From Leisingera caerulea DSM 24564 (lineage in GTDB: Bacteria > Pseudomonadota > Alphaproteobacteria > Rhodobacterales > Rhodobacteraceae), in contig NZ_KI421513.1 of the NCBI RefSeq assembly GCF_000473325.1, forward strand, positions 2,985,217-3,049,216: a DNA stretch of 64,000 nt. Direction: 5' to 3'. Positions 15,484 to 33,957 of the stretch are shown piece after piece; position 1 is the first letter of the stretch, and the number at the start of each line of letters is the position of its first letter. Both the position numbers and the translations under genes were made by a program. The notes beneath the pieces are model-generated. The model searched no databases, was not told the origin of the DNA, and saw only the letters and a list, made by a program, of their open reading frames with translations.

Positions 15484-15515
15484 GCTCGCATCATCATTTG
15501 GTGCGGGCCTTTTCC
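15484..15515 (+). terminator. rho-independent terminator
   Basis: Ten-bp stem (15484-15493 with 15499-15508, including two G-U pairs), a 5-base loop and then CTTTTCC. It ends the two-gene coiled-coil operon. Confidence 0.7.
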
Positions 15516-15641
15516 GTTTCCAACATTTTAACGCACCGAACGCCTCTGCCAAATGAGGATATGCCGGGGCTTGACGTTTTCCTATTAAATGGACCGTTCA
15601 CGCGAATCGCTTGGACGGAAACCTTAGATTGGAGAACTCGA

Positions 15642-15989: not shown

Positions 15990-16201
15990 CTCATTGCCCA
16001 TGTTTTCGCAGAAGCTGCCTTAAATACGATCCCGCCCGGCACATACGCAGGGCGGGGCTAATTCGATCAATAAAGCAGTGCTAGACGCAGTGCTTTTTAA
16101 ACCGAATTCGCAAAATATCATATCGGATCAAGGTGTTATGAGTCTCGACCCATCTGACTAAATATCAATCAGAGGCGTTCTGTATGGCTGATTTCTAACG
16201 A

Positions 16202-17662: not shown

Positions 17663-18024
17663 TTTCTAATCTTACTCCTATCTGGACAATAACTTTACAT
17701 GGACTTCTTTTTCACAAGTCTAAGTTCGAATCCTGGTTGATCACAACGTTCCCGGAGTTCGGGGAACTGACTTTTTTGGGGTGCTGCCATCAGTGTTGCG
17801 GGAAAATTCGCCTTTTCGCAAATACCTTTTGGGTTGCAACCAGAAACTGTTTCTTGGCCGTTCAAATTCCGCTTTGCGGATTGGTTCTATGAGACAGGTC
17901 AGTGTGTCGACGCGCTAGTACATCGGATGCAGGGCGTTGAAGCAATTTGTGAGTGATCGCGCGGCTCGCAGGCACCATCTTCCCCGACAAGTTGGTTCCA
18001 TCAGAGATGAAAAGGAAACCTGCT
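17663..18024. promoter_or_regulatory. divergent intergenic region
   Basis: 362 bases between the minus-strand 486-residue gene and the plus-strand gene at 18025. It should hold both promoters. A short T-arm-like string near 17722-17738 is not part of a tRNA. No repeats or coding signal seen. Confidence 0.35.
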
Positions 18025-18501
18025 ATGACCACATATGTTGCAACTGCCCCTGACGGATCGGAACACACCCGCAAGACTGATCGAACCTACACACATGCTG
18101 TCCTTTTGGAAGGCAAAGAAGGTTGGACAGTGGTCGGCTTCTGCGGTCGTCTTGACCTCGCCCAAAAGAAGCAAGGCGAGCATCCCGGCAGTATCTTTGT
18201 CGAGGTCAGCGAACTCGGTGCGACCGAGGCCGACGAGACCAAGGCCGAGGCTGCCGAAGACGCCGAGCAAGGGAACCAAGAAGCTGAGGGTACAGCCGAG
18301 ACCGACACGCCAAAGCGGACGATCAGTCGCCTCACTGAGAAGCTGCTGATGGACGAGAATTTGGGTTATGCGGCGATTGTGGATCAGGTCGTGGCCGAGT
18401 TCCCAGACGCTAAGACCACTACGCGTTCAGTCGCATCTGTTGCGGCCGTTATGCGAAAGAAGGGTGTGGATGTCCCGGTGCGCAAGAAGTCAAAGGGCTA
18501 G
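18025..18501 (+). CDS. unknown acidic protein with C-terminal helical domain
   Basis: 158 residues: an N-terminal segment with short beta-like strands (MTTYVATAPDGSEHTRKTD; YTHAVLLEGKEGWTVVGFCG), an acidic linker rich in Glu/Ala (about 70-105), and a C-terminal domain (RLTEKLLMDENLGYAAIVDQ; TTTRSVASVAAVMRKKG) resembling a small HTH module. ATG 18025 has AAGGA about 9 bases upstream; ATG 18007 is the alternative. No family recognised. It is convergent with the CBASS E2-like gene. Confidence 0.5.
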   Translation: MTTYVATAPDGSEHTRKTDRTYTHAVLLEGKEGWTVVGFCGRLDLAQKKQGEHPGSIFVEVSELGATEADETKAEAAEDAEQGNQEAEGTAETDTPKRTISRLTEKLLMDENLGYAAIVDQVVAEFPDAKTTTRSVASVAAVMRKKGVDVPVRKKSKG

Positions 18502-18549
18502 GCGTTTGTGTAGTTGGCGGCCTTCGTGGTCGCCGACCCCAGCGGTTTC

Positions 18550-19224
18550 TTAGGCAGCTTTTCGTGGCGTGATCGTAGCGTGCATCCGTTTTGCCATAAA
18601 CGACGGAATTCTTTGGCTCAACCTTCGGAGATCATCGCTGTGACAGTCCCTCAGGCGTTTTCCGCTACCGCAAGGACACAATGCGTGTCCTTTAATTTTC
18701 TGGCGAGCAAGCAGGTGAAGATAGTCTGCTATGACTTTTGCGTCGGGGGACACGCCGAGAAGATCAGCATAGCTTTCTAAAACGCCGAGAACGCCATGTG
18801 ATCTTTCACCATAGGGCCAACTGCCATTGACCTCAAAGTGGGTTTGGCTGACGAAATAGTCATGCATCGGTCCAGTGAGAAAGGTCTCAAACCGATGATC
18901 TGGTGCCGTCAATAACCACTCCTCCCATACGCCCAGGCAGCAGTTCCCATCCTCTGGAAAAACATGACGATCAGCTATCCGCGGAATACGCCCTCCGGTC
19001 TCGAAAACGACTGGTTCCTCAGCGGGAAATCCCGCAGTCACTCCCGCCTGGATTTTGTAGGAATCGAAGACCCCATCTGGCGTATCGATTGGCCCATCGG
19101 GTCCACAAGCAAGGAACTGGCCCTCAAGAATAATTAACCTTTCTGTTCGTGAAACGCTCAGCTCTGGCTGATGATGAGCTACTGCCTTTTGCACCTCAGA
19201 ATAGAGGGCGTCCGGTATCGTCAC
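18550..19224 (-). CDS. CBASS E2-like protein with C-terminal SEC-C motif
   Basis: About 224 residues. The N-terminal 130 have a ubiquitin E2-type fold: AGFPAEEPVVFETGG corresponds to the E2 'P-x-x-P-x-V-x-F' strand region, and RHVFPEDGNCCLGVWEEW to the HPN/active-site stretch, with the second Cys of CC the likely catalytic residue. The C-terminus holds a SEC-C zinc motif (CPCGSGKRLRDCH). GTG 19224 overlaps the CD-NTase stop (GTGA); TTG 19233 is the alternative start. E2-only (type II-short) CBASS loci use such a protein to modify the CD-NTase C-terminus. No E1 or JAB gene is nearby. Confidence 0.8.
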   Translation of the reverse strand: MTIPDALYSEVQKAVAHHQPELSVSRTERLIILEGQFLACGPDGPIDTPDGVFDSYKIQAGVTAGFPAEEPVVFETGGRIPRIADRHVFPEDGNCCLGVWEEWLLTAPDHRFETFLTGPMHDYFVSQTHFEVNGSWPYGERSHGVLGVLESYADLLGVSPDAKVIADYLHLLARQKIKGHALCPCGSGKRLRDCHSDDLRRLSQRIPSFMAKRMHATITPRKAA

Positions 19225-20330
19225 TCCGCCCAAGGTTTGCCACCACTCCCGCTCTCTTTCCGGGCGTTGACCGCCGACTCCATCCGCGATTGCTTTTCGC
19301 TATCTGAGAGTGCGGCTGCTGCTTTCGAGGCAAGGAATGGTGCGGCCAGACCGGCGCCACCAAGAGCGCTCTTGGTTTCAAAGGGAGCACTGGAGCTGTT
19401 TGCCGCATTCTTAGAAGCACCGTCAAAAAAGCTATGCCGAAAGACGGTCTTCCAAACCTTGTTGGCGTCTGAATCTGTGATGTCGTCCGCGTCGAGTTTG
19501 TCGAGTTCCTTTACGGAGTCCTTAGCCTGGTCGATCAACCGACCAATGCGGTCGGTATCCTTGTCGTCTGATACTTGAACTCCGTTGGCAAACACGGGCG
19601 TGTATTTCGAACGCTGTGACAGGCTGCTAAGCGTCTCTCGGAAGGACCTGTCGTCACGGCCGTCATCCGCCGTGTAGCACTCAATGAATAGCGCGGTAGC
19701 GACCAAACCGCCGGGAAAAGACCTTTTGAGCCTTGCGGCATGCGTCTTCGAGAAGAACTTACCAAATCTGATGATGCGTCGTAGCTGGTAGCTGCCCGAA
19801 GTCTCCGGGCTTTTCCAGGAAACTTCTCGCTCAATCCACTGGTTCATGGCGGCAGGGTCGGAGGCAACCCACTCGTCGCCCGAAGACAGTTCGTAGCGCC
19901 AGCCTGCATCGGTCCAGCGCCTACGGAACACAGGGAAATCACACTGATACCCGTCCGCATACACAACCCGGACACACTTTTTCTTAGTCACCGGATCGTT
20001 CTTCATATTGGTCGCCTTGCGGGCGATTGCCTGGCGAACCCAATCACGGGTGGTTCTCGGTCCCTTGGCATCGTCCTGATCGAAAACGATGCCAAGGTCG
20101 ATGTCGTACCGGCTTTCCTGATCGGATTCCGGCGGCTGGGTCATGGTCTTTTGAGCGTAACCACCTTGATTGATGGTTTCTTTGAAGGCTGGCTTTTCCA
20201 ATTCTTCGAGGCCCTTCTCGATACGTTCGAGATTGGTTTCGCGTCTGCGCTTCATGTCCGCGCGCTGGTCGTTGCTCAGCCGAACTTGTTGGTTGTGAAA
20301 GCTGGAAATTCGCTTTGAAAAATCATACAT
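19221..20330 (-). CDS. CBASS CD-NTase (cGAS/DncV-like nucleotidyltransferase)
   Basis: 369 residues. Nucleotidyltransferase core: GGYAQKT, then the metal-binding pair in YDIDLGIVF and the third acidic residue in YQCDFPVF. The helical C-terminal half (KWTVFR-like helix, then a low-complexity Ala/Ser tail) ends in SGSGGKPWAE, a flexible tail of the kind that E2-like partners act on. It should make a cyclic oligonucleotide second messenger upon phage infection. ATG 20330 follows AGGTG and starts at the family's usual MYDFSKRI; the frame is open to 20375. Coupled to the E2-like gene downstream. Confidence 0.88.
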   Translation of the reverse strand: MYDFSKRISSFHNQQVRLSNDQRADMKRRRETNLERIEKGLEELEKPAFKETINQGGYAQKTMTQPPESDQESRYDIDLGIVFDQDDAKGPRTTRDWVRQAIARKATNMKNDPVTKKKCVRVVYADGYQCDFPVFRRRWTDAGWRYELSSGDEWVASDPAAMNQWIEREVSWKSPETSGSYQLRRIIRFGKFFSKTHAARLKRSFPGGLVATALFIECYTADDGRDDRSFRETLSSLSQRSKYTPVFANGVQVSDDKDTDRIGRLIDQAKDSVKELDKLDADDITDSDANKVWKTVFRHSFFDGASKNAANSSSAPFETKSALGGAGLAAPFLASKAAAALSDSEKQSRMESAVNARKESGSGGKPWAE

Positions 20331-20423
20331 CTTGAGCACCTGCCTCTGTCGTTCCGCTCTATCTGGTGGGCGCACCGACGAAATTCAAGGGGGCTGGGCC
20401 AGAAAAGAATCGGAGAACGAATC

Positions 20424-21182
20424 GTGTATTCACTGTTGCCTTGGAGATGGATTGGTTCCGCTGTCGCGTTGATTGTGGCGGTCTCGCTTTACGCTGACGA
20501 CATTGGTCTGCTGTTGGACTTCACGGTGACCGATCAGCACCTCATCCGATATCTTCCTCCCGTGCTCTTGGGTTTCCTCGCCGGGTTTTTCGGGCCCACC
20601 GGCTACTGGGCACCTTGGCGGATTGTGTGGCGCTGGATACCCGCTCTCAACAGATGGCTACCTGACCTGAATGGAGTATGGCTGGGGACAACTGGCTCTA
20701 ACTGGCCAACGATCAAGAAGATGCTGGATGGGGCACAGGCCTACTCGGTCATAGACAAAGAAGAGCTGCAGTCAACGCAAGAACAGGTGGATGCTATGGC
20801 CGTTCAGGTCACGGCCTCCTTGTTCCGTTTGAAGGTCGAAGCTGGCCTCAGTTCGACCGACGGGCGTTCGCATTCGATTACCGCGAAACCCCATCGGGAT
20901 CAGCACTCAGGGCGGTTACATCTCACCTACGTATATGAACAGACTTCGCCAAATCCGGCCATCACAGACGAGGAACGGCATATGGGTGCTGCCGATCTGA
21001 CCATCGACCCCGACAACCTCGACGTAGCTGAAGGAGTGTATTGGACCCGAAGGAATTGGCAGATCGGGCTCAATACAGCAGGACGCCTTGAGCTGCACCG
21101 ATCCACTCAGCGTAAGGAAAAGGGCAAATCTCTACGTCAATATGCGGCTGAGGAGAAAAAGCGTTTAGAGGTCGAGAGTTAG
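20424..21182 (+). CDS. Cap15-like CBASS effector (2TM plus beta-barrel)
   Basis: 252 residues. Two N-terminal membrane helices (WIGSAVALIVAVSLYADDIG; YLPPVLLGFLAGFFG) are followed by a beta-strand-rich domain whose first strand is LPDLNGVWLGTTGSNWP, the 'LNG-W-G' hallmark of Cap15 (SMODS-associated 2TM beta-rich effector). Such effectors bind a cyclic dinucleotide and damage the inner membrane. GTG 20424 has GGAG 8 bases upstream. It is divergent from the CD-NTase with 93 bases between starts, whereas CBASS effectors usually sit in the same operon. A Lys/Glu-rich tail follows the barrel. Confidence 0.82.
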   Translation: MYSLLPWRWIGSAVALIVAVSLYADDIGLLLDFTVTDQHLIRYLPPVLLGFLAGFFGPTGYWAPWRIVWRWIPALNRWLPDLNGVWLGTTGSNWPTIKKMLDGAQAYSVIDKEELQSTQEQVDAMAVQVTASLFRLKVEAGLSSTDGRSHSITAKPHRDQHSGRLHLTYVYEQTSPNPAITDEERHMGAADLTIDPDNLDVAEGVYWTRRNWQIGLNTAGRLELHRSTQRKEKGKSLRQYAAEEKKRLEVES

Positions 21183-21269
21183 CGCAAATACATGGCGCCG
21201 GGTCACAAATGATCCACCAACACTGATTGAGACAGTGTTTTCTGTACTTATTCTGTACTCGAAAAGAAA

Positions 21270-21299
21270 AAGGACTTAGCGGGTAAGCGCTAAGTCCTT
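21270..21299 (-). terminator. terminator of the rebuilt tRNA-Asn, supplied by the island
   Basis: On the minus strand a perfect 12-bp stem (21288-21299 with 21270-21281) with a 6-base loop is followed by TTTTTCTTTTC. It lies inside the island, 8 bases beyond the tRNA 3' end, so the element brings its own terminator and the host one is left at 5834-5865. Confidence 0.88.
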
Positions 21300-21307
21300 G
21301 AAATCTT

Positions 21308-21382
21308 TGGCTCCGGCGGTAGGGATCGAACCTACGACCAATTGATTAACAGTCAACTGCTCTACCGCTGAGCTACGCCGGA
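21308..21382 (-). tRNA. tRNA-Asn (GTT), rebuilt by the island end
   Basis: 75 bases including encoded CCA. Acceptor 5' strand TCCGGCG pairs with CGCCGGA; D arm, anticodon loop with GTT (TGACTGTTAATCA) and T arm (GGTTCGATCC) are all intact. The 3' 47 bases are the right attachment repeat. Confidence 0.97.
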
Positions 21383-21660
21383 ATGTGAGGCGTCGTATAA
21401 GAGTTCTAACTTAGGGCGTCCAGAGGAAAATTCGCCATTCGAACGATTTTTTTACGCTCGAATTCCGTCGGGCCGCGCAGGCAGGATAACAGCGGAAACC
21501 CGGAAGCGGGGGAGCATCAGGCGGGGGCAGGGGAGATGCCGGAACTGGCATCAGATTGTGCGGACAGACGGCCGATATTGGGCAGATGCCACAGGCAAGG
21601 ACAGAGCCGCGTGCTGTGCACATTGAGGCCTAAGAGCCTGTTTTATTGTTTTTTTGAGAA

Positions 21661-21735
21661 TGGCTCCGGCGGTAGGGATCGAACCTACGACCAATTGATT
21701 AACAGTCAACTGCTCTACCGCTGAGCTACGCCGGA
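21661..21735 (-). tRNA. tRNA-Asn (GTT), second copy
   Basis: 75 bases, apparently identical to the tRNA at 21308-21382, including CCA, anticodon GTT and the 47-bp attachment core. This unoccupied copy is a second potential integration target, and 278 bases separate the two genes. Confidence 0.97.
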
Positions 21736-21804: not shown

Positions 21805-22722
21805 TCAGCCGCCGCGCCGCTCGAATACGGCTGCCGCGGAGAGTGTGCCCTGCGGTGCCGCCAGGCCGCGGCCGCTGAGGTCCACCAGATGTGCAAAAAC
21901 GTTGCGTTCCGCGGCGTTCAGCAGGGATGGCGGTGTTTCGGTGTAAATCTGCTCCGCAAGGGCGCGGGCGGTGGCGGGGGCCTGCGCCAGAGCTTGCAGA
22001 ATCGCAGCCTCGCGCGATTCCCGGTGCGCGATCAGCCAATCGAGCCGGCCGGCGGGATCGGTGACCGGCGCGCCGTGGCCGGGGTGGAACACCCGCCAGC
22101 GGCGCTGCCGCAGGCGGCGGCAGGAGGCCATGAAATCGGTAAGGTCGCCATCCGGCGGCGACACCAGCGAGCTGGCCCAGCCCATCACATGATCCGCGGT
22201 GAAGCAGGCATCCCCCCAGGCCAGAGCGATATGGTTGCCAAGGTGGCCGGGTGTGTGAATCACCTCCAGCTCCCAGCCGTCGGCGCTGATCACTTCGCCG
22301 TCGCGAACGGTGATGTCCGGGGCAAACTGAGTGTCGATGCCTTCGCCGCCGCCGACCAGCCCGCTGGCGGCAAGACGGGCCATAACGTTACTGCGGCCCG
22401 CGCCCGCGCCGCCATAGCCATGAACCGGCGCGCCGGTGGCCTGACTCAGGCCGCGTGCAAGGGGAGAGTGATCCAGGTGGCTGTGGGTCACGATGATATG
22501 GGTGATCTGCTGGCCGGGCTGGACGGCGGCGAGAATCGCCTCCAGATGCGGCGCGGACTCCGGTCCCGGGTCGATAACGGCCAGGCTGCCGGTGCCAATC
22601 AGATAGGTGTTGGTGCCGCGGTAGGTCATCGGCGAGGGATTCGGCGCCAGGATGCGGCGCAGGCCGGGCTCCAGCTCTGTTGCCGCCCCCGGCTGCGGGT
22701 TGAAGTCATCTGGTGCCTGCAT
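21805..22722 (-). CDS. MBL-fold metallo-hydrolase (LACTB2-like)
   Basis: 305 residues. Metallo-beta-lactamase core with TNTYLIGTGSLAVIDPGPES and the metal motif VTHSHLDHSPLA, further metal ligands in HTPGHLGNH and FTADHVMGW, and a C-terminal helical winged domain (LLNAAERNVFAHLVDLSGRG). This layout matches the LACTB2/hydroxyacylglutathione-hydrolase-like group; the bacterial substrate is uncertain. ATG 22722 is preceded by GGGGC. Divergent from the sensor kinase at 22807. Confidence 0.92.
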   Translation of the reverse strand: MQAPDDFNPQPGAATELEPGLRRILAPNPSPMTYRGTNTYLIGTGSLAVIDPGPESAPHLEAILAAVQPGQQITHIIVTHSHLDHSPLARGLSQATGAPVHGYGGAGAGRSNVMARLAASGLVGGGEGIDTQFAPDITVRDGEVISADGWELEVIHTPGHLGNHIALAWGDACFTADHVMGWASSLVSPPDGDLTDFMASCRRLRQRRWRVFHPGHGAPVTDPAGRLDWLIAHRESREAAILQALAQAPATARALAEQIYTETPPSLLNAAERNVFAHLVDLSGRGLAAPQGTLSAAAVFERRGG

Positions 22723-22806
22723 GGTCTTGCCCCGCTGCTGTTTTCCTGCACTTATGCGCCGCCGGACTGTCTTTCCTCTTTTCCTGACGCCCTATAGGCT
22801 TAGCCC

Positions 22807-24126
22807 ATGTCCTTCGATTGGCTCAAACGATATATGCCGCGCAGCCTCTATGCCCGGGCGGCCTTGATCCTGGTGGTGCCGATCGTTGCGCTGCAGATCG
22901 TGGTCTCGGTGGTGTTCATCAAGCGGGATCTGGAAGATGTAACGGTGCAGATGACCGCCACCATCCAGCGCGAGCTTGAGCTGCTGCAGCAGGTGGCGGA
23001 CGCGGCGCCGGACCAGGAGACGGCGCTGGCGCAGATGGCACCGCTGCTGCAGCCGCTGAAAATGCAGGTGCAGTACCTGGCGCCCGGCGCGCCGCTGCCG
23101 GAGGATCAGTTCAGCCTGATCGAGTTTTCCGGCCGGGTGGTGCGCGATGAGCTGGAGAAGACTTTCCCGGGTTTTCTGGCGGCGCGGTTCCCGTCAGACC
23201 GCAGGGCGCTGGTCTATTTCGGCACTGCTCACGGGCTGGTGGAGCTGAGCTTTGACCGCCGCCGCCTGACCGCTGCGGCACCGCATCAGCTGATCGTCAC
23301 CATGCTGCTGTTCGGCTTTCTGATGATGCTGATCTCCTTTCTGTATATGCGCAACCAGCTGCGCCCGATCAAACGGCTGGCCAATGCGGCCGAAGCCTTT
23401 GGCCGCGGCCGGGTGGTGCCTTATTCGCCCGGCGGCGCCACAGAGGTCCGTGCAGCCGGCAGTGCGTTTCTGGACATGCGGAGCCGGATCGAGCGTCAGA
23501 TCGAACAGCGCACATTGATACTGTCGGGGGTAAGCCACGACCTGCGCACGCCGCTGACCCGGATGAAGCTGGAACTGGCGATGCTGGACGAGGAAGACGC
23601 CGCGCCGATGCTGCGCGACGTTGATGAAATGCAGGCGCTGCTGGATGCGTTCCTGGATTTCTCCCGCGGTTCCGCGGTGAGCGAGCCGGAACCGGTCGAT
23701 CCGCACGAACTGGTCCGCACCATCATTGCCGACTGGCAGCGCCAGGAAACCCAAGTGTCACTGGGCGAGATGAGCGGAGCTGGCGAAGTGATGCTGCGCC
23801 GCCAGCCGGTCCGGCGGGCCGTGGAGAATCTGATTTCCAACGCGATGCGCTATGGCACCCAGGCCCGGGTGTCGGTGGCGCTGACGGAGAGGTCCCTGCG
23901 TATCCGGGTCGAGGATGACGGGCCGGGCATCCCGCCGGAGCAGCGCGGCGATGCGGTACGGCCCTTTACCCGCCTGGATCCGGCCCGCAATCAGAACCGG
24001 GGTTCCGGTGTCGGCCTCGGGCTGGCGATCGTGGCAGATACCGCGCGCGCCCATGGCGGGACGCTCCGGCTGGGGGAAAGCGCCGACTTGGGCGGGTTGC
24101 AGGCCGATATCGTCATCGCCCGCTGA
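22807..24126 (+). CDS. EnvZ-like sensor histidine kinase
   Basis: 439 residues. TM helix at about 15-35, periplasmic domain, second TM at about 157-177 (LIVTMLLFGFLMMLISFLYM), HAMP (RPIKRLANAAEAFGRG), HisKA with His244 (SGVSHDLRTPLTRMK), HATPase_c (N box LISNAMRYGT, DDGPGIP, GVGLGLAIV). The HisKA sequence is of the EnvZ type. No response-regulator gene is adjacent in the window, so the OmpR-like partner lies elsewhere. Confidence 0.92.
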   Translation: MSFDWLKRYMPRSLYARAALILVVPIVALQIVVSVVFIKRDLEDVTVQMTATIQRELELLQQVADAAPDQETALAQMAPLLQPLKMQVQYLAPGAPLPEDQFSLIEFSGRVVRDELEKTFPGFLAARFPSDRRALVYFGTAHGLVELSFDRRRLTAAAPHQLIVTMLLFGFLMMLISFLYMRNQLRPIKRLANAAEAFGRGRVVPYSPGGATEVRAAGSAFLDMRSRIERQIEQRTLILSGVSHDLRTPLTRMKLELAMLDEEDAAPMLRDVDEMQALLDAFLDFSRGSAVSEPEPVDPHELVRTIIADWQRQETQVSLGEMSGAGEVMLRRQPVRRAVENLISNAMRYGTQARVSVALTERSLRIRVEDDGPGIPPEQRGDAVRPFTRLDPARNQNRGSGVGLGLAIVADTARAHGGTLRLGESADLGGLQADIVIAR

Positions 24127-24280
24127 TCCGGCGGCAGCTGCGGGGTTTTCCGGCTATCTTGGTGTTGCGCAGCACACCGGCTCACCGCACGCCGGCTTTG
24201 CCCGGTGTTTTCTCTTTTCCGGTATCACTCTGGCATTGGGGCAGGCTGCCCTGGAGCGAAACTGTGTTTGGAGTCCTCTC

Positions 24281-24542
24281 ATGCCTCAGATTGATCCGTT
24301 CGCCAGCCATCGCCGGGGAATGCAAAGCCCGGCCACGCATCACCTGAGCGTCACGCCGCAGAACGCGGTGGATCTGCCGGTCCGCCCGCGGGTGCTGCGT
24401 GTGCTCACGTCCGGCGGTCTCAGCCTGCGTGACGAGGCCGGAACGGTCATCACCTGTGCTGTGACGGCCGGGGAGCCATCGGAGTCTCCTCTGTCGGCGT
24501 CGAGCGGACGGCACCACCGCAACCGCTGCGGGGTGGTACTGA
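24281..24542 (+). pseudogene. frameshifted GTA head-spike-base-like protein
   Basis: From ATG 24281 the frame reads MPQIDPFASHRRGMQSPATH then LSVTPQNAVDLP and ends near GTVITCAVTAGE, the pattern of the spike-base family of Rhodobacter gene transfer agent (RCAP_rcc01079-like). The expected C-terminus RADGTTATAAGWY followed by TGA (24540-24542) is present but in the +1 frame, so one base is gained (or two lost) between about 24471 and 24495. The original frame runs on to 24669 with non-family sequence. No GTA or phage genes are nearby. Decay or a sequencing error are both possible. Confidence 0.55.
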
Positions 24543-25126
24543 GGCCGGGGCAGGACCGGCAGAGCAGCGGCGCTGGCATCCCTTGCCAGAACGCCATGCC
24601 GCTTGGCCGGGCAGGCAGGCGCAGCGCAGACATGCTTCAGAAGGCGGTATTGCGGAAGTTGATATGGTAGGCCTTAAGGGAGAAAGTTCGAACCAAGTTT
24701 TTACTGAACTTTCTAGGTGGGAAGCCGATCTAAAGTCAGTGACTGCTAGGGGTGCTCCGGAGCTAGGATCCGAGCCAAGCGATCAAGTTTGACCGATCAA
24801 AGTTTCGTTCCTTTAGCTTCTCCTTTTGATCATTCTTTGGTGACATCCCGCTGTCTCTTCTTCGGTTCTTAGGGCGTTTCGCTCTGCGGGGCCTTGGGGT
24901 TCCAACAGCGGAGGTGAGTGTCATGCTTTCCACTTGAGGTTGGGGGCGTCGTGGTTGTACCGAAGGCAATCGCGATGATCGGTTGCGATCAATGTCATGC
25001 TGTTGCGCACTTGTTGAAGTGTGAAACATTGACGCGTGTATTACTTGGTCCCCTGATTTTTTTGACAGTATCTTTACGTTGTTGATTTGAAAGGCTATTC
25101 ACCGCCAGATTGTTGATGGAAGGAGC
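24543..25126. other. non-coding stretch containing the left end of the second island
   Basis: 584 bases. A 9-base core TGGTAGGCC at 24665-24673 repeats at 30514-30522 and marks the left junction. To the right of it, 24674-24792 holds an open frame that would extend the recombinase gene in the excised form. 24793-25126 has an AT-rich promoter-like zone before the TIR gene; I see no convincing gene in it. Confidence 0.55.
24665..24673. repeat. left attachment core of the serine-recombinase island
   Basis: TGGTAGGCC, matching 30514-30522, which is the CCA end and first acceptor bases of tRNA(CAT) on the minus strand. Short identity is typical for serine-recombinase sites. Sequence to the left is GC-rich host, to the right AT-rich. 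Confidence 0.6.
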
Positions 25127-25858
25127 ATGGTTTTGAAACCTAGAATTTTTATTGGTTCGTCACGGGAAGGGGCAAAGTTGGCCGATGCAATCCACTTTAA
25201 TCTTACCTACGACGCTGAGTGCACCGTGTGGAAGGATGGAGTATTTCAATTGTCGTCGCACACGCTTACGGCTTTAATAACAGCGCTTCGCTCCGCTGAC
25301 TTTGGCATTTTTGTTTTTTCACCGGACGATGTTACCGTCATGCGAGGCGAAACGCACAACACTGTCCGCGACAATGTTCTTTTCGAACTTGGGATGTTCA
25401 TAGGCCGTTTAGGTCCAGAACGATGCTTCTTCTTAGTTCCAGATGACTGCTCAGGTCTGAGGTTGCCTAGTGATCTGGCTGGCGTTACACCGGGACGCTA
25501 CGAAAGTAGGCGCTCTGACAACAACTGGCAGGCTGCACTAAATCCTGCCTGCATGCAAATTCGCAGCCAAGTAGCGTCCTTGAAGTCCTTTCAAGACGCC
25601 GTTTCAACAGACGCCTCACCCACTAATCAAAATGGGTGTTCCACTGCGGCACACGAGAGTGAAATAGAGCAGGTTTCAGCTCAGTATTATAAAAGAAGCA
25701 TCCTAGTTAAAGGTTTGCCAAGGGTTGAAAATGTGAAGATAAAGCCTATCGGAAGTTGGAACAACTCATTGGCGGGATGGGTAGTTCCACGAAGCCGGGA
25801 GAAGAAGCTCCTCGAAATATTCCCAAGTCTTGAAATTCTCCCAGCTGACGTTGACTAA
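25127..25858 (+). CDS. TIR-like nucleotide-binding protein with C-terminal extension
   Basis: 243 residues. Residues 1-130 match the CAP12/PF10137 TIR-like family: KPRIFIGSSREGAKLADAI, ADFGIFVFSPDD and VRDNVLFELGMFIGRLG with the probable catalytic Glu in FELG, then RCFFLVPDD. Related domains cleave NAD+ in anti-phage signalling. After a linker, residues about 180-243 form a small unassigned domain (YYKRSILVKGLPRV; WNNSLAGWVVPRSREKKLLE) that could sense a trigger. GGAAGGAG lies directly before ATG 25127. It is the first cargo gene of the island. Confidence 0.85.
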   Translation: MVLKPRIFIGSSREGAKLADAIHFNLTYDAECTVWKDGVFQLSSHTLTALITALRSADFGIFVFSPDDVTVMRGETHNTVRDNVLFELGMFIGRLGPERCFFLVPDDCSGLRLPSDLAGVTPGRYESRRSDNNWQAALNPACMQIRSQVASLKSFQDAVSTDASPTNQNGCSTAAHESEIEQVSAQYYKRSILVKGLPRVENVKIKPIGSWNNSLAGWVVPRSREKKLLEIFPSLEILPADVD

Positions 25859-25889
25859 AGATAACGGTGTGTTGGCTGCTAGATTTTCT

Positions 25890-26138
25890 ACAGCAGTCTT
25901 GGCTCGGTGCGGTATCGCAACGCCATGTCGAAAAGCACCTTTATTCAAAAGCAGGTCTGGATGGCGGCATGGCTGAGGTTCTGCTGGCGTCTAGCCTGCC
26001 GGTTGGTGCAGCATGCCATCGCAACTGCGGGGCGAACCAGATCGTCAGCGAGCCACAGCGCTTGAGCGCTTTGTTGCGGGCGGTCAAGCTCCTGGTCTTG
26101 TAAGTCTGTGGTGTCGGTCTGCTCATGTAACCCAGCAA
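25890..26138 (-). pseudogene. IS5-family transposase N-terminal remnant
   Basis: On the minus strand YKTRSLTARNKALKRCGSL then TIWFAPQLRWHAAPTG is the standard N-terminus of IS5-type transposases. A frame change follows with LSHAAIQTC, and another with FDMALRYRTEPRLL, matching the family's 'AAIQTCL...FGMALRQT' region in broken form. About 250 bases survive with at least two frameshifts; no intact ends or full ORF. The rest of the 533-base gap 25859-26391 has no gene. Confidence 0.7.
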
Positions 26139-26201
26139 TCATGCTGGATGCATGACATGAATCCCCCTTAGGGATTTGTGCAATACAGCTCACAAGCTAA
26201 C

Positions 26202-26221
26202 AAAAACCTCCGCACGGAGGC
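26202..26221 (-). terminator. hairpin with T-run, minus strand
   Basis: CCTCCG/CGGAGG stem (26207-26220) followed on the minus strand by TTTTTG. It faces the transposase remnant rather than any intact gene; it may shield the island operon from antisense reading. Confidence 0.4.
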
Positions 26222-26391
26222 TCGCTTCGTTGACGTGTGCGTTGCCAATCGCAAGCAATAGTGGACCACTTCTCAAAGAAAAGTCTGGGGTCATGGACTT
26301 TCGGAGCAGTTTAGTGCGTCAGTGTTTCCTCTTGTGGTTGCGTGCAGATGAGCGGAGTGTTTCTACATAGAAGAGAATCGGAATGGGTTGA

Positions 26392-27480
26392 ATGGACAAG
26401 AGAATTTTCGACACGCTTCAAGCTCGCACCCCTTGGACGCTTGCTAACCGGGCAATGAAACGGTCGGGGTTGAACGGGGCACAGGGATGGGATGGAGCGA
26501 TTGAAAAGCACAAAGATGCAGATAATCCAGCCGCCGAAACAACATTGAAGGAACTTCTGAGGCAGCACGCGCTCTGCGGCGAGAAGATGACAAAGTTCTA
26601 TCCTGCCTCCACCGAAGTTCTAGCTGCTCTGAGAGAGGCAATCGGCAATCTGGAAGTAGCTGACCACCCGTTCACGGCCAGCTTTCCCATGGTTCTTTCT
26701 GAAGAGGAGCTACTGCAAACAGACGCCGAGCCGGTACTCGTAAGCGTAGAGAAATCGGATGATGGGATTGGCGCCGTTTTTTCGGCGATGATAAAGCTGA
26801 CTTCTCGTGAGGAAATTCCTATCGGGGAACTTTTCGAAGACCCGGAGGAAGTCAAGGAGCGCTACGATGAGGTCATCGGTCTCAAGTTCCAAGCAGTTCA
26901 ACTATTCAACGTCATCTGGGTTCCTCATCACGACGACTTTGTAGAAATTCGAACCGATTTTCCAAAGGGAATGAAGCAAGAGCTAGCACATGAACTGCAG
27001 TCTCAGTACAAAAGCATTGCTAACAGCATGCTGCAAGAGCCTGAGCTATCCGATCCACTGGACTTGTTCCCTCTAATTGAGGCTATGTACGAAGATGCGA
27101 AGGAAGGTACCGTAGTCGAGCTTAGCTTCAAGACTTCTACAGCCTCTATCAAGAATGAGAAGATGAGACGGACTCGTCTATGTCTAAGGGAAGAACTGTA
27201 CCATAAGGGTGGTAAGGAAGCCCTTGATACAAAAATCGAGCCTTTTAAAGTCAGTATTAGGTGGGAGTTCCAATCAGAAGGGCAGGACTACCAGCCAGAG
27301 CTTACTCTCGCGGGAACATCTAGAGGTAGGCAAACAGTGGCCGGAGCATCCAAGGGGCAACTTGTGTCGGGTGCAGTTATCAAGAACTGCATCGGTAGTG
27401 TGGACTATGAACACGTTAAGGAGCGTTTGGTACATCACCTCAGCAAAATTGAGGAAGAACAACCGGACTTAGTTGAGTAA
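26392..27480 (+). CDS. unknown protein, first gene of a three-gene operon
   Basis: 362 residues, acidic, soluble, no recognised family. Apparent alpha/beta segments occur at about 90-165 (EPVLVSVEKSDDGIGAVFSA) and at about 265-320 (KVSIRWEF; ELTLAGTSRG). No P-loop, nuclease or membrane motif. It ends two bases before the GTG of the next gene, so it belongs to one transcript with 27483 and 27893. In defence operons a large unknown protein next to a nuclease is often a sensor or regulator; that is inference only. Confidence 0.68.
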   Translation: MDKRIFDTLQARTPWTLANRAMKRSGLNGAQGWDGAIEKHKDADNPAAETTLKELLRQHALCGEKMTKFYPASTEVLAALREAIGNLEVADHPFTASFPMVLSEEELLQTDAEPVLVSVEKSDDGIGAVFSAMIKLTSREEIPIGELFEDPEEVKERYDEVIGLKFQAVQLFNVIWVPHHDDFVEIRTDFPKGMKQELAHELQSQYKSIANSMLQEPELSDPLDLFPLIEAMYEDAKEGTVVELSFKTSTASIKNEKMRRTRLCLREELYHKGGKEALDTKIEPFKVSIRWEFQSEGQDYQPELTLAGTSRGRQTVAGASKGQLVSGAVIKNCIGSVDYEHVKERLVHHLSKIEEEQPDLVE

Positions 27481-27482
27481 CC

Positions 27483-27896
27483 GTGGACCGTAGTGAGATC
27501 ACCGCAGGTATTAAACAATACTGGGGGCAGACGCCCGCCGGTGATCTCAGCTTATTGCTGGTTGATCGCATTCTTTCGATACGCCCAGAGGCCGCTGCTG
27601 CGCTGTCCTATCGAAATCTGATCGACTTAGCCGAATTAGACGCACTTTCAACAGAACTTCTCGCTGCTGTGAATATTTTGACTACCTCAGAATTCGCGAT
27701 TCTGGATGCAGGGGGATTTTTTGTCGACTCTGATGACGAAAGCTATGAATTGACCTCTGAAGATTTCGATCGAGTTGTTAGAGAGAATGTTTTGGTGCAT
27801 CCAGTTCGAGGGGAGTTGGTGGAAGACCCAGCCTCTAAAGTTTCTCCCTTTTTTTCCCTTAAAGAGGAAGTGCACGACGGGAGTAAAACGTCGTGA
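27483..27896 (+). CDS. unknown small acidic protein, second gene of operon
   Basis: 137 residues, strongly acidic, helical. GTG 27483 lies two bases after the previous stop, and its own stop overlaps the next GTG (GTGA). LTTSEFAILDAGGFFVDSDD and SYELTSEDFDRVVRE suggest a compact globular domain. No family recognised. Acidic surface and position suggest a protein partner or inhibitor of the adjacent nuclease. Confidence 0.65.
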   Translation: MDRSEITAGIKQYWGQTPAGDLSLLLVDRILSIRPEAAAALSYRNLIDLAELDALSTELLAAVNILTTSEFAILDAGGFFVDSDDESYELTSEDFDRVVRENVLVHPVRGELVEDPASKVSPFFSLKEEVHDGSKTS

Positions 27897-28522
27897 CTAG
27901 TGATATTACAGTGAGCACACTTCTTTTGCACCAGCAAGGGACAGCAATTGAAGCTGCCAACTTATACACATTAGCGCAATCCCATGATGCCAGATTGCAA
28001 GCGGTAAGGAAGGTTCTAGATTTCGCGTGCAATGAGCTTGAAATCAATAAGCACCTGAAGCAAGATCTTAGTGAAGATCAGTTGACAATTGAAATTTGCC
28101 AGTTTTTAAGTGCGCTGGGTTTTCAGCCCAGACATGATGAGCAGGTTGGCGGGCACTGTGATATAGTCGTCCGTGGGAAAGATATGTTCCTATGGTTGGC
28201 TGAGGCAAAATGGCACAACAGTTACGGCTGGCTGGATAAGGGTTTTAAGCAGCTTTCAACTCGATACTCTACGGGTGTTTCGGGGCAAGATCAGGCTGAA
28301 GTCGTGATCTACTGTAAAAACAAAGACGCCGTTGCAATGATGCAAAAATGGCGTAAAGAACTGTCCTCTAGAAATGGCGACATTAAAACATTCGATAGCG
28401 AAGGTGAAAACCCCTTAGAGTTTTGGTCAGAACACTCTCACGTGGCTTCTGGTATGACTTTTAAAGTTCGTCATAAAGCCGTGGTATTGTATCATCAGCC
28501 AGTCGATAATGTATCCGCGTAA
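27893..28522 (+). CDS. PD-(D/E)xK nuclease-like protein, third gene of operon
   Basis: 209 residues. The core reads LTIEICQFLSALGFQPRHDE, VGGHCDIVV, then FLWLAEAKWH: helix with Glu, the catalytic Asp in G-H-C-D, and E-A-K, followed by KQLSTRYSTG as the second helix with Gln. This is a restriction-endonuclease-like fold. GTG 27893 overlaps the preceding stop by GTGA. It is followed by about 250 bases without a gene. Together with the two upstream genes it forms a candidate defence system whose trigger and target are unknown. Confidence 0.78.
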   Translation: MTSDITVSTLLLHQQGTAIEAANLYTLAQSHDARLQAVRKVLDFACNELEINKHLKQDLSEDQLTIEICQFLSALGFQPRHDEQVGGHCDIVVRGKDMFLWLAEAKWHNSYGWLDKGFKQLSTRYSTGVSGQDQAEVVIYCKNKDAVAMMQKWRKELSSRNGDIKTFDSEGENPLEFWSEHSHVASGMTFKVRHKAVVLYHQPVDNVSA

Positions 28523-28776
28523 ATCGTTGCAGGCTGATCGTGGGCTTCCTTCAATGAGGTGGCGACACGATTTATGAGGTCAGTGTGCCTCCTATGGTGT
28601 TCCGACTCTGATTGGCGGAAATTCTCTAAATACCATTTAGGATCACAATTTCATGAGTGATTTGACCTTAAAGAAAAAGTTGTGATTTTTCATATCCTTG
28701 ACTCAAGTATGACGGCGGCAGACACTGTTGCTGCTATCTGGTTTTGAAGTCTACGTGGAAGTTGGCGGTTCGAACT

Positions 28777-29025
28777 ATGAGTAAGGCGCCGAAGACAGAT
28801 TCGAACTACGAGTTCGAACCTACTGCAATAAGTCGTGAGTGCATGAACTCACTTCGCTCAATAGCTGATGCTTTTGTCGACCTAAGCTTTGGAAATCTGC
28901 AAACAGGCTTTTCCGATAAAAAGGTCAGGGATGACATTAGGCAGTTCTTCGAATCTTCTTCGCAGGCGCAGAGGAGGAGAAGATGGAGAACTTTTCAAAG
29001 AAAAGCAGGGTGCAGAAATGTTTGA
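28777..29025 (+). CDS. possible small protein upstream of the recombinase
   Basis: 82 residues from ATG 28777; no clear ribosome site. The first 60 look like a helical protein (ECMNSLRSIADAFVDLSFGN), while the basic end (QRRRRWRTFQRK) overlaps the recombinase start by 43 bases. It could be a recombination directionality factor, which are often encoded next to large serine recombinases, or not a gene at all. Confidence 0.4.
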   Translation: MSKAPKTDSNYEFEPTAISRECMNSLRSIADAFVDLSFGNLQTGFSDKKVRDDIRQFFESSSQAQRRRRWRTFQRKAGCRNV

Positions 29026-30557
29026 TTTACTGCCGTGTCTCTTCAAGGAAGCAAGAGCGAGAGGGGTCAGGTCTTTCAGGGCAAGAACGAAGTTGTCGAG
29101 ACTATGCCAAGTTAAAAGGGTATAGGGTTGTCGAATTCATAGATGATGTGTTTTCTGGAGCCTATTCTGATCGCCCGGGTGTTAAGAGGTTAGAGCAATT
29201 TCTTACAAGGGTGAACCCTAAGGAATATGTGGTGATTGTATACGACATTTCGAGGTTTGCCCGGGACATTGTTGCTCATAGAGCGGTTCGAAACTTAATT
29301 GGGTCCACGGGCGCAGGCATAGAAAGTCCAAATGTTGTGTTTGGCCATGATGCGAGTTCTCGGTTTGCTGAAGAGGTTCAAGCTCTTTTTGCGCAGTACG
29401 AAAGAGAGAGGATAGTCGAAACAGCGAAAAGTCGGTCGCTTGCTAGACTTAGAAACGGTTATTGGGTTTTTCCAAAACCTCCCGGATACAAGTACGAAAA
29501 GGATATTGGGGGCGGGAAGATTCTAGTAAGGGATGAACCTGTGGCCACAATTGTTGAAAATGTCCTGAATGGTTTCGCATCGGGTCGTTTCCAGTCTCAG
29601 GCCGAAATACAACGTTACCTAGACGCGAATCCAGGCTTTCCCAAGGCGCGTGCGAGTAAATCGATAAAGATTGATCTTGTAGCAAGAATGCTGAAAAATC
29701 TCCTTTACGCAGGCTACCTCCAGCAGAAGAAGTGGGGCGTACCTCTCACCAAGGCAAAGCACGAAGCGCTGATCACTTACGAGACCTTTCAGGTTATTCA
29801 ATCGCGTCTTAATGAACGAGCAGTCGCTCCGGCTCGACCGAACATCAAACGTGATTTTGTCCTAAGTGGTGTCATGAAATGCGGAAATTGTGGGAGAAGT
29901 ATTACCTACTGTTGGTCAAGAAGCCACTCGGGTAAAAAATACCCATACTACCTATGCCCCAATCGTACTTGTCCTGATGGGGGGAAGTCGATCCGACGTG
30001 GCAAACTTGAACGGGAGTTCGAAGAAATCCTGCGTGGCCTGTCGCCGTCCGAGGAAGTGTTCGAAGTTGCGGAAAGGGTTTTTCGATCCGCATGGAAGAC
30101 ACGAGTTGAAAAGTTCGCGGTGGAAACTAGGAAACTGCGAAAGCGCTCCAACCAGATCGATCAAGAGATTGAAGAGCTAGTAAAGTTGGTAACAGGCAAC
30201 CCCACCAGCCCAGTCGTGGGAGCCTACGAAAGGAAGATAGTCGATCTGCACTCCGAAAAGGCTTTAATCGACGAAAGGGCCGAGAGTGTGTGTCAGCCTT
30301 CCACTGACTTTGACGAAATGTTCGAACTCTCAATGGCGTTTCTGTCAAGCCCTTATGATGTGTGGAAAAATTGCGGTTACACTGTAAGAAGAATGATCCT
30401 TCGGTTGGTTTTTCCACACCGAATTGTCTTCAGTCTAAATGAAGGGCTTCGAACCCCAGAAACCACCTTTCCGTTCAAGGTTTTAACGTTTCTGAGGCAG
30501 GCAAATTTCAGGTTGGTAGGCCCGGCAGGATTCGAACCTGCAACCAAAGCGTTATGA
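28983..30557 (+). CDS. large serine recombinase
   Basis: 524 residues. Resolvase domain with catalytic Ser20 (IYCRVSSRKQ) and SGQERSCRDYA, DISRFARD; recombinase domain (GYKYEKDIGGGK; AKHEALITYETF); zinc ribbon (MKCGNCGRSITYC ... YYLCPNRTCPDGG); C-terminal coiled coil at about 385-440. GGAGGAG precedes ATG 28983. The last 14 codons (from GPAGFEPATKAL back to the core) lie inside the tRNA(CAT) gene. In an excised circle the frame would instead continue from 24674 for about 39 codons to TGA 24790-24792. Confidence 0.93.
   Translation: MENFSKKSRVQKCLIYCRVSSRKQEREGSGLSGQERSCRDYAKLKGYRVVEFIDDVFSGAYSDRPGVKRLEQFLTRVNPKEYVVIVYDISRFARDIVAHRAVRNLIGSTGAGIESPNVVFGHDASSRFAEEVQALFAQYERERIVETAKSRSLARLRNGYWVFPKPPGYKYEKDIGGGKILVRDEPVATIVENVLNGFASGRFQSQAEIQRYLDANPGFPKARASKSIKIDLVARMLKNLLYAGYLQQKKWGVPLTKAKHEALITYETFQVIQSRLNERAVAPARPNIKRDFVLSGVMKCGNCGRSITYCWSRSHSGKKYPYYLCPNRTCPDGGKSIRRGKLEREFEEILRGLSPSEEVFEVAERVFRSAWKTRVEKFAVETRKLRKRSNQIDQEIEELVKLVTGNPTSPVVGAYERKIVDLHSEKALIDERAESVCQPSTDFDEMFELSMAFLSSPYDVWKNCGYTVRRMILRLVFPHRIVFSLNEGLRTPETTFPFKVLTFLRQANFRLVGPAGFEPATKAL
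30514..30522. repeat. right attachment core inside tRNA(CAT)
   Basis: TGGTAGGCC, shared with 24665-24673. It is the CCA and acceptor end of the tRNA and also in-frame coding sequence of the serine recombinase. Confidence 0.6.
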
Positions 30558-30589
30558 GCGCTCTGCTCTAACCGTTGAGCTACAGGCCC
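30514..30589 (-). tRNA. tRNA with CAT anticodon, probably tRNA-Ile2
   Basis: 76 bases including CCA. Acceptor GGGCCTG, D arm with GGTTAGAGCAG, anticodon loop CTCATAA, T arm GGTTCGAATCC. The CAT anticodon together with the GGTTAGAGC...CGCTCATAACGC context resembles the lysidine-modified tRNA-Ile2 rather than initiator or elongator Met; the choice needs TilS identity elements. Site of the serine-recombinase insertion. Confidence 0.93.
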
Positions 30590-30745
30590 GCCACAGACCC
30601 GTGGTTAGAAAATGGCGGGCAGGAGGTCAAGCGGCGATTGCACCGCAGCGCCGCGGCCGCGGCCTTCTGTGCCGGGATGCAATCGCTTGTTTCCTTCTGT
30701 TCCGCCTTGCGCTAAAGGCTGCCGCAACGTGTTGGAAGGAGCCAG

Positions 30746-31791
<1,046 letters not shown>

Positions 31792-31795
<4 letters not shown>

Positions 31796-32388
31796 GCCAC
31801 AAAAAGGTCGCGATCCTGATTTCCGGCGGCGGCTCCAACATGGTGTCGCTGCTGGATAGCATGACCGAGGACCATCCGGCACGGCCCTGTCTGGTCCTGT
31901 CTAACAACGCCGATGCCGGGGGGCTGGCCAAGGCCGCCGCCGCAGGCGTGGCCACCGCCGTGGTGGATCACCGCCCCTTCAACGGCGACCGCGAGGCCTT
32001 TGAGGCCGAACTGGTGAAGCCAATCTTCGAGGTGGGCGCTGACATCGTCTGTCTGGCCGGGTTCATGCGGGTTCTGACCGCGGGCTTTGTGTCGCAGTTC
32101 GAAGGCCGGATGCTGAACATCCACCCGTCGCTGCTGCCCAAATACAAGGGCCTCCACACACACGCCCGCGCCTTGGAGGCAGGCGACGCTGAGCACGGCT
32201 GCACCGTGCATGAGGTGACACCGCGTCTGGACGACGGCCCGGTTCTGGGTCAGGCCCGGGTGCCGGTTCTGCCCGGCGACACGCCGGACACGCTGGCGGC
32301 GCGGGTGCTGGTGCAAGAGCACAAGCTGTACCCGGCCGTGCTGCGCCGCTTTGCCGCTGGCGACAAGACTCCGGTTCAACTGGCCTAG
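31792..32388 (+). CDS. purN: phosphoribosylglycinamide formyltransferase
   Basis: 198 residues. PurN transfers formyl from 10-formyl-THF to GAR in purine synthesis. Motifs: [44 protein letters not shown] (His-Pro-Ser-Leu-Leu-Pro), and [12 protein letters not shown] 31792 overlaps the purM stop by GTGA. Its TAG stop overlaps tail to tail with the stop of the small ORF on the other strand. Confidence 0.98.
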
Positions 32389-32570
32389 CGTCTGTCTTGA
32401 ACGGCTGCGCTGTTGCCATGCCAGTCCAGCGGATTTTGCGCCGGGGCCGGGGCCATAAGCGCGGGCAGGCCAAACAGAACCAGCAAAGCAGCAGCCGCGA
32501 GCAGCGGAATCAACTTGCGAAACGGTGCAGCTCCTGCGGTTTTTGCGGGGGAAAGGTCGAGTGCAGTCAT
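32385..32570 (-). CDS. small single-pass membrane protein, unknown
   Basis: 61 residues with one hydrophobic helix (LIPLLAAAALLVLFGLPALM) after a short basic N-terminus, and a C-terminal tail of about 20. CAGGAGAA precedes ATG 32570 with 8-9 base spacing, which favours a real gene. It lies tail to tail with purN, their stop codons overlapping. No family recognised. Confidence 0.5.
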   Translation of the reverse strand: MTALDLSPAKTAGAAPFRKLIPLLAAAALLVLFGLPALMAPAPAQNPLDWHGNSAAVQDRR

Positions 32571-32799
32571 CGGTCATTCTCCTGTTTGCGATGCTCAGCT
32601 AATTTAGGAACTGCACACGCATCAGAAAAATGAATGTTTGGCGAAATAATATCACAAACCGTGAAGTCTTGTTGTGCCGGAGCGCCAGTGGCTGTGCTGC
32701 TTGCAGCGCAAATCCACGGCAGCCGCGGCACCTGTTTGCATTGCCCGGAACAAGCGCGTATCACGGCCCGGCCCACGTGAGATTGAAAAGCGGTATTTG

Positions 32800-33957
32800 A
32801 TGAAAACCCTGACCACCACCGAAGAACTGCAGGCATTTTGCGATGCTACCGCACAATATCCCTATGTCACGGTGGATACCGAATTTCTGCGTGAACGGAC
32901 CTATTACTCCAAGCTCTGCCTGATCCAGCTGGCCTTTTCCGGCGACGGGGAAAACGACGCGGTGCTGGTCGACCCGCTGGCCGATGGCATCTCGCTGGAG
33001 CCGCTTTATGCGCTGTTCCGCAATGAGAACGTGGTCAAGGTGTTCCATGCGGCGCGCCAGGATCTGGAGATTTTCTGGGTCGAGGCCAGCGTCTTTCCCA
33101 AGCCGCTGTTTGACACCCAGGTTGCGGCGATGGTCTGCGGCTTTGGCGAGCAGGCGGGCTATGAAACCCTGGTGCGCAAGATCGTCAAACAGGGGCTGGA
33201 CAAAACCTCGCGCTTTACTGACTGGTCGCGCCGCCCGCTGAGCGAGGCGCAGAAGACATATGCGCTGGCGGATGTGACCCATCTGCGCAAGATCTATGAA
33301 TTTCTGGCAGCCGAGCTGGAAAAGAGCGGCCGGTCCCATTGGGTGGCGGAAGAGTTGCAGGTGCTGACCGACCCGGCGACCTATGACATCCAGCCGCAGG
33401 ACGCGTGGAAGCGGGTCAAGACCCGCACCAATTCGGGCAAGTTCCTGGCGGTGGTTCGCGAGCTGGCGGCGTTCCGCGAAACCTACGCGCAGAGCAACAA
33501 CGTGCCGCGCAACCGGGTGTTCAAGGATGACGCGCTGGTAGAGCTGGCCTCTACCAAACCGCGCACCGCGGCAGAGCTTGGCGGCTCCCGTCTGCTGCTG
33601 CGCGAGGCCCGCAAAGGCGCGATTGCCGAAGGCATCCTGGAAGCGGTGGCCAAGGGCGTCAGCTGCCCGCCTGAAAATTTCCCCCGCCTGGACCGCAGCA
33701 AGGAAAAGCTGCAGGTGAACCCGGCGCTGGCGGATCTTCTGCGGGTGCTCCTGAAGGCCAAGACCGAGGCTGAAGGCGTGGCCGCCAAGCTTATTGCGCC
33801 GAGTTCCGACCTGGACGCTATTGCCGCGGGTTTGCGCGATGTGCCGGCCCTCAGCGGCTGGCGCCGCGAAGTGTTCGGCGCGGATGCGCTGCGGCTGTGC
33901 GAAGGCAAAATCGGCCTTGCTGCCAAGGGGCAGGCGGTGCAGGTTGTGGAGCTGTAA
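32800..33957 (+). CDS. rnd: ribonuclease D
   Basis: 385 residues, usual length. 3'-5' exoribonuclease for tRNA and stable-RNA 3' maturation. DEDD motifs: TVDTEFLRE, FHAARQDLEIF, and YALADVTHL, followed by an HRDC domain at about 210-290 (VVRELAAFRE, RNRVFKDDALVEL). ATG 32800 begins at the catalytic domain; the longer frame to 32674 has no matching family sequence. A bidirectional terminator follows. Confidence 0.97.
   Translation: MKTLTTTEELQAFCDATAQYPYVTVDTEFLRERTYYSKLCLIQLAFSGDGENDAVLVDPLADGISLEPLYALFRNENVVKVFHAARQDLEIFWVEASVFPKPLFDTQVAAMVCGFGEQAGYETLVRKIVKQGLDKTSRFTDWSRRPLSEAQKTYALADVTHLRKIYEFLAAELEKSGRSHWVAEELQVLTDPATYDIQPQDAWKRVKTRTNSGKFLAVVRELAAFRETYAQSNNVPRNRVFKDDALVELASTKPRTAAELGGSRLLLREARKGAIAEGILEAVAKGVSCPPENFPRLDRSKEKLQVNPALADLLRVLLKAKTEAEGVAAKLIAPSSDLDAIAAGLRDVPALSGWRREVFGADALRLCEGKIGLAAKGQAVQVVEL

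Follow-up and report, generated by a model that had tools for sequence, protein, structure and literature searches.

What becomes of a serine recombinase when the site at which it recombines lies within its own gene? The question is raised by a 5,849-bp element (24665-30513) contained in a window of Leisingera caerulea DSM 24564 DNA (contig NZ_KI421513.1, positions 2,985,217 to 3,049,216), the window being the whole 64-kb stretch analysed. One-way control is a central question for the serine integrases, and the usual answer is a separate directionality factor. If the product of recombination itself changed the C-terminus of the enzyme, there would be a built-in switch and two natural enzyme forms. 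An earlier note on this DNA described a minimal island with likely defence cargo, and overlooked that the attachment site lies within the recombinase gene itself, whose C-terminus would change on integration, a trait widespread in the family. The best explanation of the whole, which we consider probable, is a family of recombinases with attP inside the gene that enter the 3' ends of tRNA genes by recognising the T-loop, and that swap a tail which would encode the state of the DNA.

The recombinase gene and the attachment joint

The element begins with a 9-base core, TGGTAGGCC (24665-24673, forward strand), repeated exactly at 30514-30522 on the same strand, where it forms the antisense 3' end (CCA) of a tRNA-Met(CAT) gene called by ARAGORN on the reverse strand (30514-30589). 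These are the only copies, starting at 24665 and 30514, on both strands of the window, which rules out a chance repeat. The GC content of the block is 48.1%, against 66.5% in the left flank (22001-24664) and 63.3% in the right (30590-33000). We joined the window's flanks at the proposed boundary, with the joint at query position 564, and aligned them to relatives. Natural empty sites in G004 (72.5% over 640 columns, query 86-693) and G013 (68.5% over 654 columns, query 62-692) aligned across the joint without a break, which rules out an island boundary elsewhere. The earlier picture of an AT-rich block between repeated cores at this tRNA is thus borne out, and the comparison with insertion-free relatives that it proposed agrees with its boundaries.

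The histidine kinase gene, tRNA-Met and purM are all present in the stretches fetched from G010, G016, G015, G012, G007 and G008, and tRNA-Met and purM in that from G002; none of these stretches has a match to the recombinase, to the TIR gene or to the leading gene of the cargo trio. Several of these relatives have other genes in between, so the insertion spot is variable. The sequence near the tRNA of G014 (L197) differs and did not yield a clear empty site, and a comparison of 120 bp of left flank with eight relatives gave no local similarity above the best of 200 shuffles. About 0.5 kb of GC-rich DNA (24136-24664), in which the reading frame looks broken by eye, separates the kinase gene from the element; it has partial matches in 18 of 100 relatives, at roughly 67-74% identity with a few short ones higher.

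The recombinase gene (28983-30557, forward strand; 524 aa as integrated) does not stop at the right core but continues into tRNA-Met, read on the antisense strand, and its last residues, VGPAGFEPATKAL, come from the core and the antisense tRNA. Beyond the left core an open stretch on the forward strand (24665-24792), in frame with the recombinase, encodes MVGLKGESSNQVFTELSRWEADLKSVTARGAPELGSEPSDQV, with its stop at 24792, and resembles 24 other tails described below. The circular form would join the recombinase to this element-encoded tail, so that the protein would end ...MVGLKGESSNQVFTELSRWEADLKS... instead of with the tRNA-antisense tail ...VGPAGFEPATKAL. That integration swaps the C-terminus of the recombinase is strongly supported by sequence.

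The protein is a large serine recombinase, as had been proposed. Pfam domains PF00239 (Resolvase), PF07508 (Recombinase) and PF13408 (zinc ribbon) score above cut-off, and the catalytic, recombinase and zinc domains are unbroken in the integrated form. Assignment to CcrB, the recombinase of SCC elements, was ruled out (61.3 bits against an NCBIfam cut-off of 900). Foldseek matched a model of a relative, L083, to serine integrases including 9dxh, 9iu2, the LI integrase 4kis and Bxb1, at E-values between 1e-19 and 1e-9 for those whole or large chains that were listed, and with TM-scores of only 0.2-0.46 because the domain arrangement differs. The same model, of the relative and not of the window's protein, has long helices at 347-395 and 399-425, a coiled-coil beside the zinc domain.

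Antisense tRNAs and element tails across the family

A search of 101 genomes at E <= 0.001, with distant matches counted, gave recombinase matches in 51. Among the best-match loci, the window's own included, 17 of 19 had an opposite-strand tRNA at the end of the gene, the exceptions being L003 and L016. Viral and species-genome collections gave 102 loci, of which 11 were set aside as incomplete or below 37% identity. In 72 of the remaining 91 full-length relatives an antisense tRNA was called at the 3' end of the recombinase, and all 72 encode CCA. The tRNA is read in the identical frame in every one of the 72, and in 65 it starts precisely 29 nt after the aligned FPFK[VA]L motif ends, although these counts are not independent since frame and offset are inherited. 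The targets of the 72 cover seven isotypes (Arg, Ser, Ala, Thr, Leu, Val and Glu), with Met in the window and Tyr in the loci of the first search, and a quick tree (92 rows, 73 labelled tips) requires at least 14 changes of isotype. The other 19 relatives comprise 14 with a GFEP-like tail and no called tRNA, and five with neither. By regular expression, a GFEP-like tail also ends 106 of the best 120 of 1,363 protein homologues; named homologues include Shimia, Phaeobacter and Ruegeria, in keeping with a host in the Rhodobacteraceae. The tails of L074, L080, L081, L231, L232 and L234 are neither clearly tRNA-antisense nor element tails, and some start with the core and then diverge.

As a control, among 11 loci with distant or partial matches (L020-L030) two, L028 and L029, had an antisense tRNA just past the match, and the placement is therefore not strictly confined to the close family; L029 looks like a C-terminal remnant of a recombinase of this family. 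Close relatives in known phages and plasmids were sought and set aside: 343 phage and 95 plasmid records matched, none of them at 60% identity or above. Viral contigs searched with P0001 alone gave three stretches and no relative.

The left ends of other elements were sought first by motif and then by running a scoring matrix, derived from 16 tails, over 110 loci. The matrix gave 22 matches at 25.1 or above, the next scoring 10.2 and the maximum at 20,034 other TGG sites being 10.9; nine of the 22 were absent from the set used to build it. With L033, found by motif only and without a called tRNA, left ends bearing a tail number 23. They occur in 13 of the 20 loci of one fetched set, and the 80 species-genome loci, covered for up to 10 kb upstream, supplied nine left ends and one joined gene. 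Over all loci scanned, no site scored above 18 except the left ends and the tails of two naturally joined genes. One of these, L083, is an uninterrupted 533-aa recombinase gene in a 27-kb IMG/VR record, with no tRNA there and a neighbour that is terminase-like by eye. The other, L168, lies near a contig end, again with no tRNA there. Scanning viral contigs with alignment A2 gave 16 loci, of which the L083 record alone carried the tail; a scan with L083 recovered only its own record.

The 25 tails are 25-48 aa long, and their commonest residues are L11 (in 19), F12 (23), L15 (22), W18 (21), E19 (21) and L22 (23). Entropy at codon positions 1, 2 and 3, taken over tail codons 10-22, is 15.0, 11.8 and 21.3. 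Frame 0 contains a stop in none of the 25, whereas the other frames contain stops in 13 and 12 of them. As far as sequence can tell, this shows constraint on the tail codons at the protein level.

The DNA around the core is patterned as well. The motif TTCGAAC lies on the forward strand at 24687-24693, 22 bp from the start of the left core, and again at 30531-30537, in the T-loop of the tRNA, 17 bp from the start of the right core; we take these as candidate zinc-domain motifs of attP and attB. On the attP side the motif stands at 22 bp in all of the first 16 tails (at most one mismatch), and when all 25 are taken, 24 have their best match there (one with three mismatches) and one has it elsewhere. 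On the attB side it stands at 17 bp in all 72 tRNA sites (at most two mismatches). The similarity of attP to attB peaks at a shift of 5 bp (4.91, against 1.70 for the next), and in serine integrases the zinc-domain motif of attB is reported to sit closer to the centre than that of attP, by 5 bp (Rutherford 2013, PMC3783163). Since the T-loop is conserved for reasons of its own in tRNAs, the telling point is that attP copies TTCGAAC at the shifted place. In the 13 elements first found with both ends, core positions 0-5 at least are identical on left and right, as is the core hexamer in seven of the nine found later.

Several results weigh against this picture. The left cores of L093 and L036 differ from the right by one base of the hexamer. 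The tail was not found in seven of the 20 fetched loci (L032, L034, L038, L041, L046, L047 and L049), though the first five of these meet a contig edge and the recombinases of L047 and L049 are broken or partial, nor in 70 of the 80 species-genome loci within the 10 kb or less of upstream sequence. The five relatives with neither tRNA nor GFEP-like tail are L083, L168 and the unexplained L074, L080 and L081, and the further viral loci L231, L232 and L234 carry other tails. The L168 recombinase has an internal stop upstream of its tail. In the L083 model, whose overall pTM is 0.39, the tail helix (507-532) is of low confidence (pLDDT about 44-56, and 30 at the end), and a database search with the tail part gave eight candidates, none at E <= 10. 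No element tail occurs in the best 120 of the 1,363 protein homologues, which is what one would see if almost all of them had been sequenced as integrated copies. The excised circle, which the earlier note had suggested looking for, did not show itself, as the predicted junction is absent from the one assembly searched, the strain's own. Finally, no directionality factor was identified.

The same genome holds a second member of the family (G000:C7:3262758-3264299, recorded as L031, L051 and L064), at tRNA-Arg(CCG), in an element of 28.2 kb with Gabija genes and a gene that is relaxase-like by eye. The smallest complete element found, of 3.5 kb (L134:8021-11501), consists of a weakly matched MobC/NikA-like gene, a relaxase, a small partner gene and the recombinase. 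Short C-terminal remnants of recombinases, possibly scars of lost elements, lie at G006:C1:2772639-2772794, G015:C98:164162-164323 and G000:C7:651497-651733.

What the exchange of tails may do

As read from the sequence, the recombinase gene in the circle runs through the core into the conserved element-encoded tail of 25-48 residues. Integration cuts within the core and attaches codons from the antisense tRNA, and the catalytic, recombinase and zinc domains stay intact. Judging from where the motifs are placed, the zinc domain may read TTCGAAC in the T-loops of target tRNAs, where the motif sits 5 bp closer to the centre than in attP, and this would allow the family to move between tRNAs. A zinc-domain site shared by many tRNAs would explain the broad targeting and would be useful for genome engineering. 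As integration swaps the C-terminus, each state of the DNA would encode its own form of the enzyme. The form made from the circle, with the tail, would perform attP x attB; the form made from the integrated copy, without it, would be confined to attL x attR or perform it better, possibly together with a small partner protein.

The tail swap may have a role in directionality. In phiC31 integrase, the region of the zinc domain and the coiled-coil are reported to control directionality, and changes that prevent binding of the recombination directionality factor (RDF) lie downstream of the coiled-coil (PMC5814800); integrase-RDF fusions are reported to favour attL x attR (PMC5737554). Together these make the C-terminal region a plausible control point. 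We offer, tentatively, the reading that in these bacterial and phage serine integrases an integration form is made from the circle and an excision form from the integrated copy, with the tail swap being or aiding the directionality switch and T-loop recognition opening many tRNA genes to the family. Among the papers listed in searches of open-access literature, judged by titles and the starts of abstracts and with most subscription papers outside it, none describes a bacterial serine recombinase whose C-terminus is altered by integration.

The partner may be an 82-aa open reading frame (28777-29025, forward strand) that overlaps the start of the recombinase gene, and which is a candidate partner of the recombinase, either a directionality factor or an accessory protein. 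The earlier account listed the recombinase, the TIR protein and the trio and passed over this frame. By regular expression, a small open reading frame with a related motif overlaps or precedes the recombinase at 54 of 88 loci, L072 at least being doubtful; the other 34 have no match, and some of these may be divergent. The small proteins matched no Pfam family (four scanned) and gave no convincing PHROG match (two scanned).

The tail might instead simply be needed for integration, in which case integrating would switch the enzyme off and a helper or a further copy would be required for excision. The same logic has been proposed for the archaeal suicidal integrases (PMC8371274), and with a second family member at tRNA-Arg in the same genome, help in trans is conceivable. 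We nevertheless regard such a lock as unlikely. The three domains are intact in the integrated form, and 25 of 27 relatives checked have no internal stop up to the conserved FPFK motif; a dead enzyme would hardly be kept whole in so many, although this might also reflect recent arrival.

It is more doubtful still that the tail is a signal for stability or interaction, as in the repressor of mycobacteriophage BPs, whose phage-encoded form is degraded and whose C-terminus is altered by integration in the same geometry (PMC4557955). The L083 protein does end in LAA, but only one of the 25 tails does so, their ends and lengths vary, and the conserved part (LF..L..WE..L) is internal. That the tail is a mere by-product of an attP that happens to overlap the end of the gene, with only the DNA site conserved, seems very improbable: GESSN overlaps TTCGAAC and its conservation can be partly at the DNA level, yet past the motif codon position 2 is the most and position 3 the least conserved, frame 0 stays open in all 25 tails while the other frames do not, and in L037 and L042, where motif residues drift, LF, the aromatic-E pair and the last L are kept.

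Cargo and likeness to known systems

Besides the recombinase and its small neighbour the element carries four genes, all on the forward strand. The first (25127-25858) encodes a 243-aa protein whose N-terminal TIR domain is of the Cap12/PycTIR type, as found with Pfam (PF10137, E 3e-32), PADLOC, NCBIfam and PDB sequences. The Cap12 match covers positions 1-144 of the 312 in the model, the C-terminal 90 aa or so are without assignment, and profile scans matched no STING, nucleotide-binding or sensor domain. Five element proteins were scanned for other functions, four of them also against PHROG: they include no nucleotide cyclase, the search for one being confined to these five, no member of a replication or transfer family, as the earlier note had said, and no relaxase such as an integrative mobilizable element would carry.

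The other three genes are tightly coupled and encode proteins of 362 aa (26392-27480), 137 aa (27483-27896) and 209 aa (27893-28522). They had been said to include proteins of no recognised family; in fact they match PHROG families phrog_12777, phrog_11490 and phrog_9664, all three of unknown function. The PD-(D/E)xK nuclease label of the third comes from a motif seen by eye, and no profile in Pfam, PADLOC, NCBIfam or PHROG supports it. For the first protein (P0003) the predicted fold is confident (pLDDT 91.9), but nothing in the PDB matched it at E <= 0.001, and for want of a solved match it is left without functional assignment. Compared with PDB sequences, P0005 gave designed repeat proteins as its best rows, no stretch of which passed alone, and otherwise matches at chance level. 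The trio occurs in the same order in Klebsiella phage KP12, between genes annotated as replication protein and capsid packaging protein, and in an Acinetobacter record genes 1 (in part) and 3 have sequence matches, the middle one matching in size alone.

The TIR protein and the three-gene set are probably antiviral. Defence models match six of ten proteins picked from six sister elements: GajA and GajB (Gabija), a retron-type reverse transcriptase, a PDC-S64 candidate, a cytosine methyltransferase and a DpdB-like protein. Further Pfam matches are to DndB-like and adenine methyltransferase domains, as well as to a relaxase in L134. With defence genes in its sisters and a relaxase in L134, the window's element looks like a pared-down member of the group. 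The first trio gene is found in none of 100 relatives and the TIR protein only weakly in four, which together with the empty sites and the sister elements upholds the idea of a minimal island with likely defence cargo, while the feature that matters most, the gene across the joint, had been missed. A second stretch of lower GC in the window (6001-21600) is possibly another island; it ends beside two tRNA-Asn genes (21308-21382 and 21661-21735).

The TIR domain is common to CBASS Cap12, Pycsar PycTIR and the window's protein, which differs in being encoded without a cyclase among the five proteins scanned and without a STING or nucleotide-binding domain. The surroundings of the trio in KP12 have the same layout as the gpA-gpQ defence hotspot of P2 as described in PMC9122126; the window's trio rides a tRNA island instead, and its antiviral role is inferred.

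The archaeal suicidal tyrosine integrases of SSV1, pTN3 and pT26-2 use tRNA genes. They resemble the present family in having the attachment site inside the integrase gene, a position supported here by left ends, natural joined genes and empty sites. They are tyrosine enzymes whose gene is split in two, whereas the window's enzyme is a serine recombinase that is not divided into separate catalytic parts, keeps its catalytic domains intact and swaps only its C-terminal tail. In the integration-dependent immunity of BPs, attP lies inside a gene and integration likewise alters the C-terminus of the product, gp33 (PMC4557955); that product is a repressor with a degradation tag, and here it is the recombinase itself, with no conserved tag. 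The enzyme itself resembles the large serine integrases of LI/A118, Bxb1 and phiC31, with which the window's family shares its domain order, its fold (as modelled for L083) and the 5-bp inward shift of the attB motif, and from which it differs in being found at the 3' ends of tRNA genes of many isotypes, with attP inside the gene and a conserved tail that can be exchanged.

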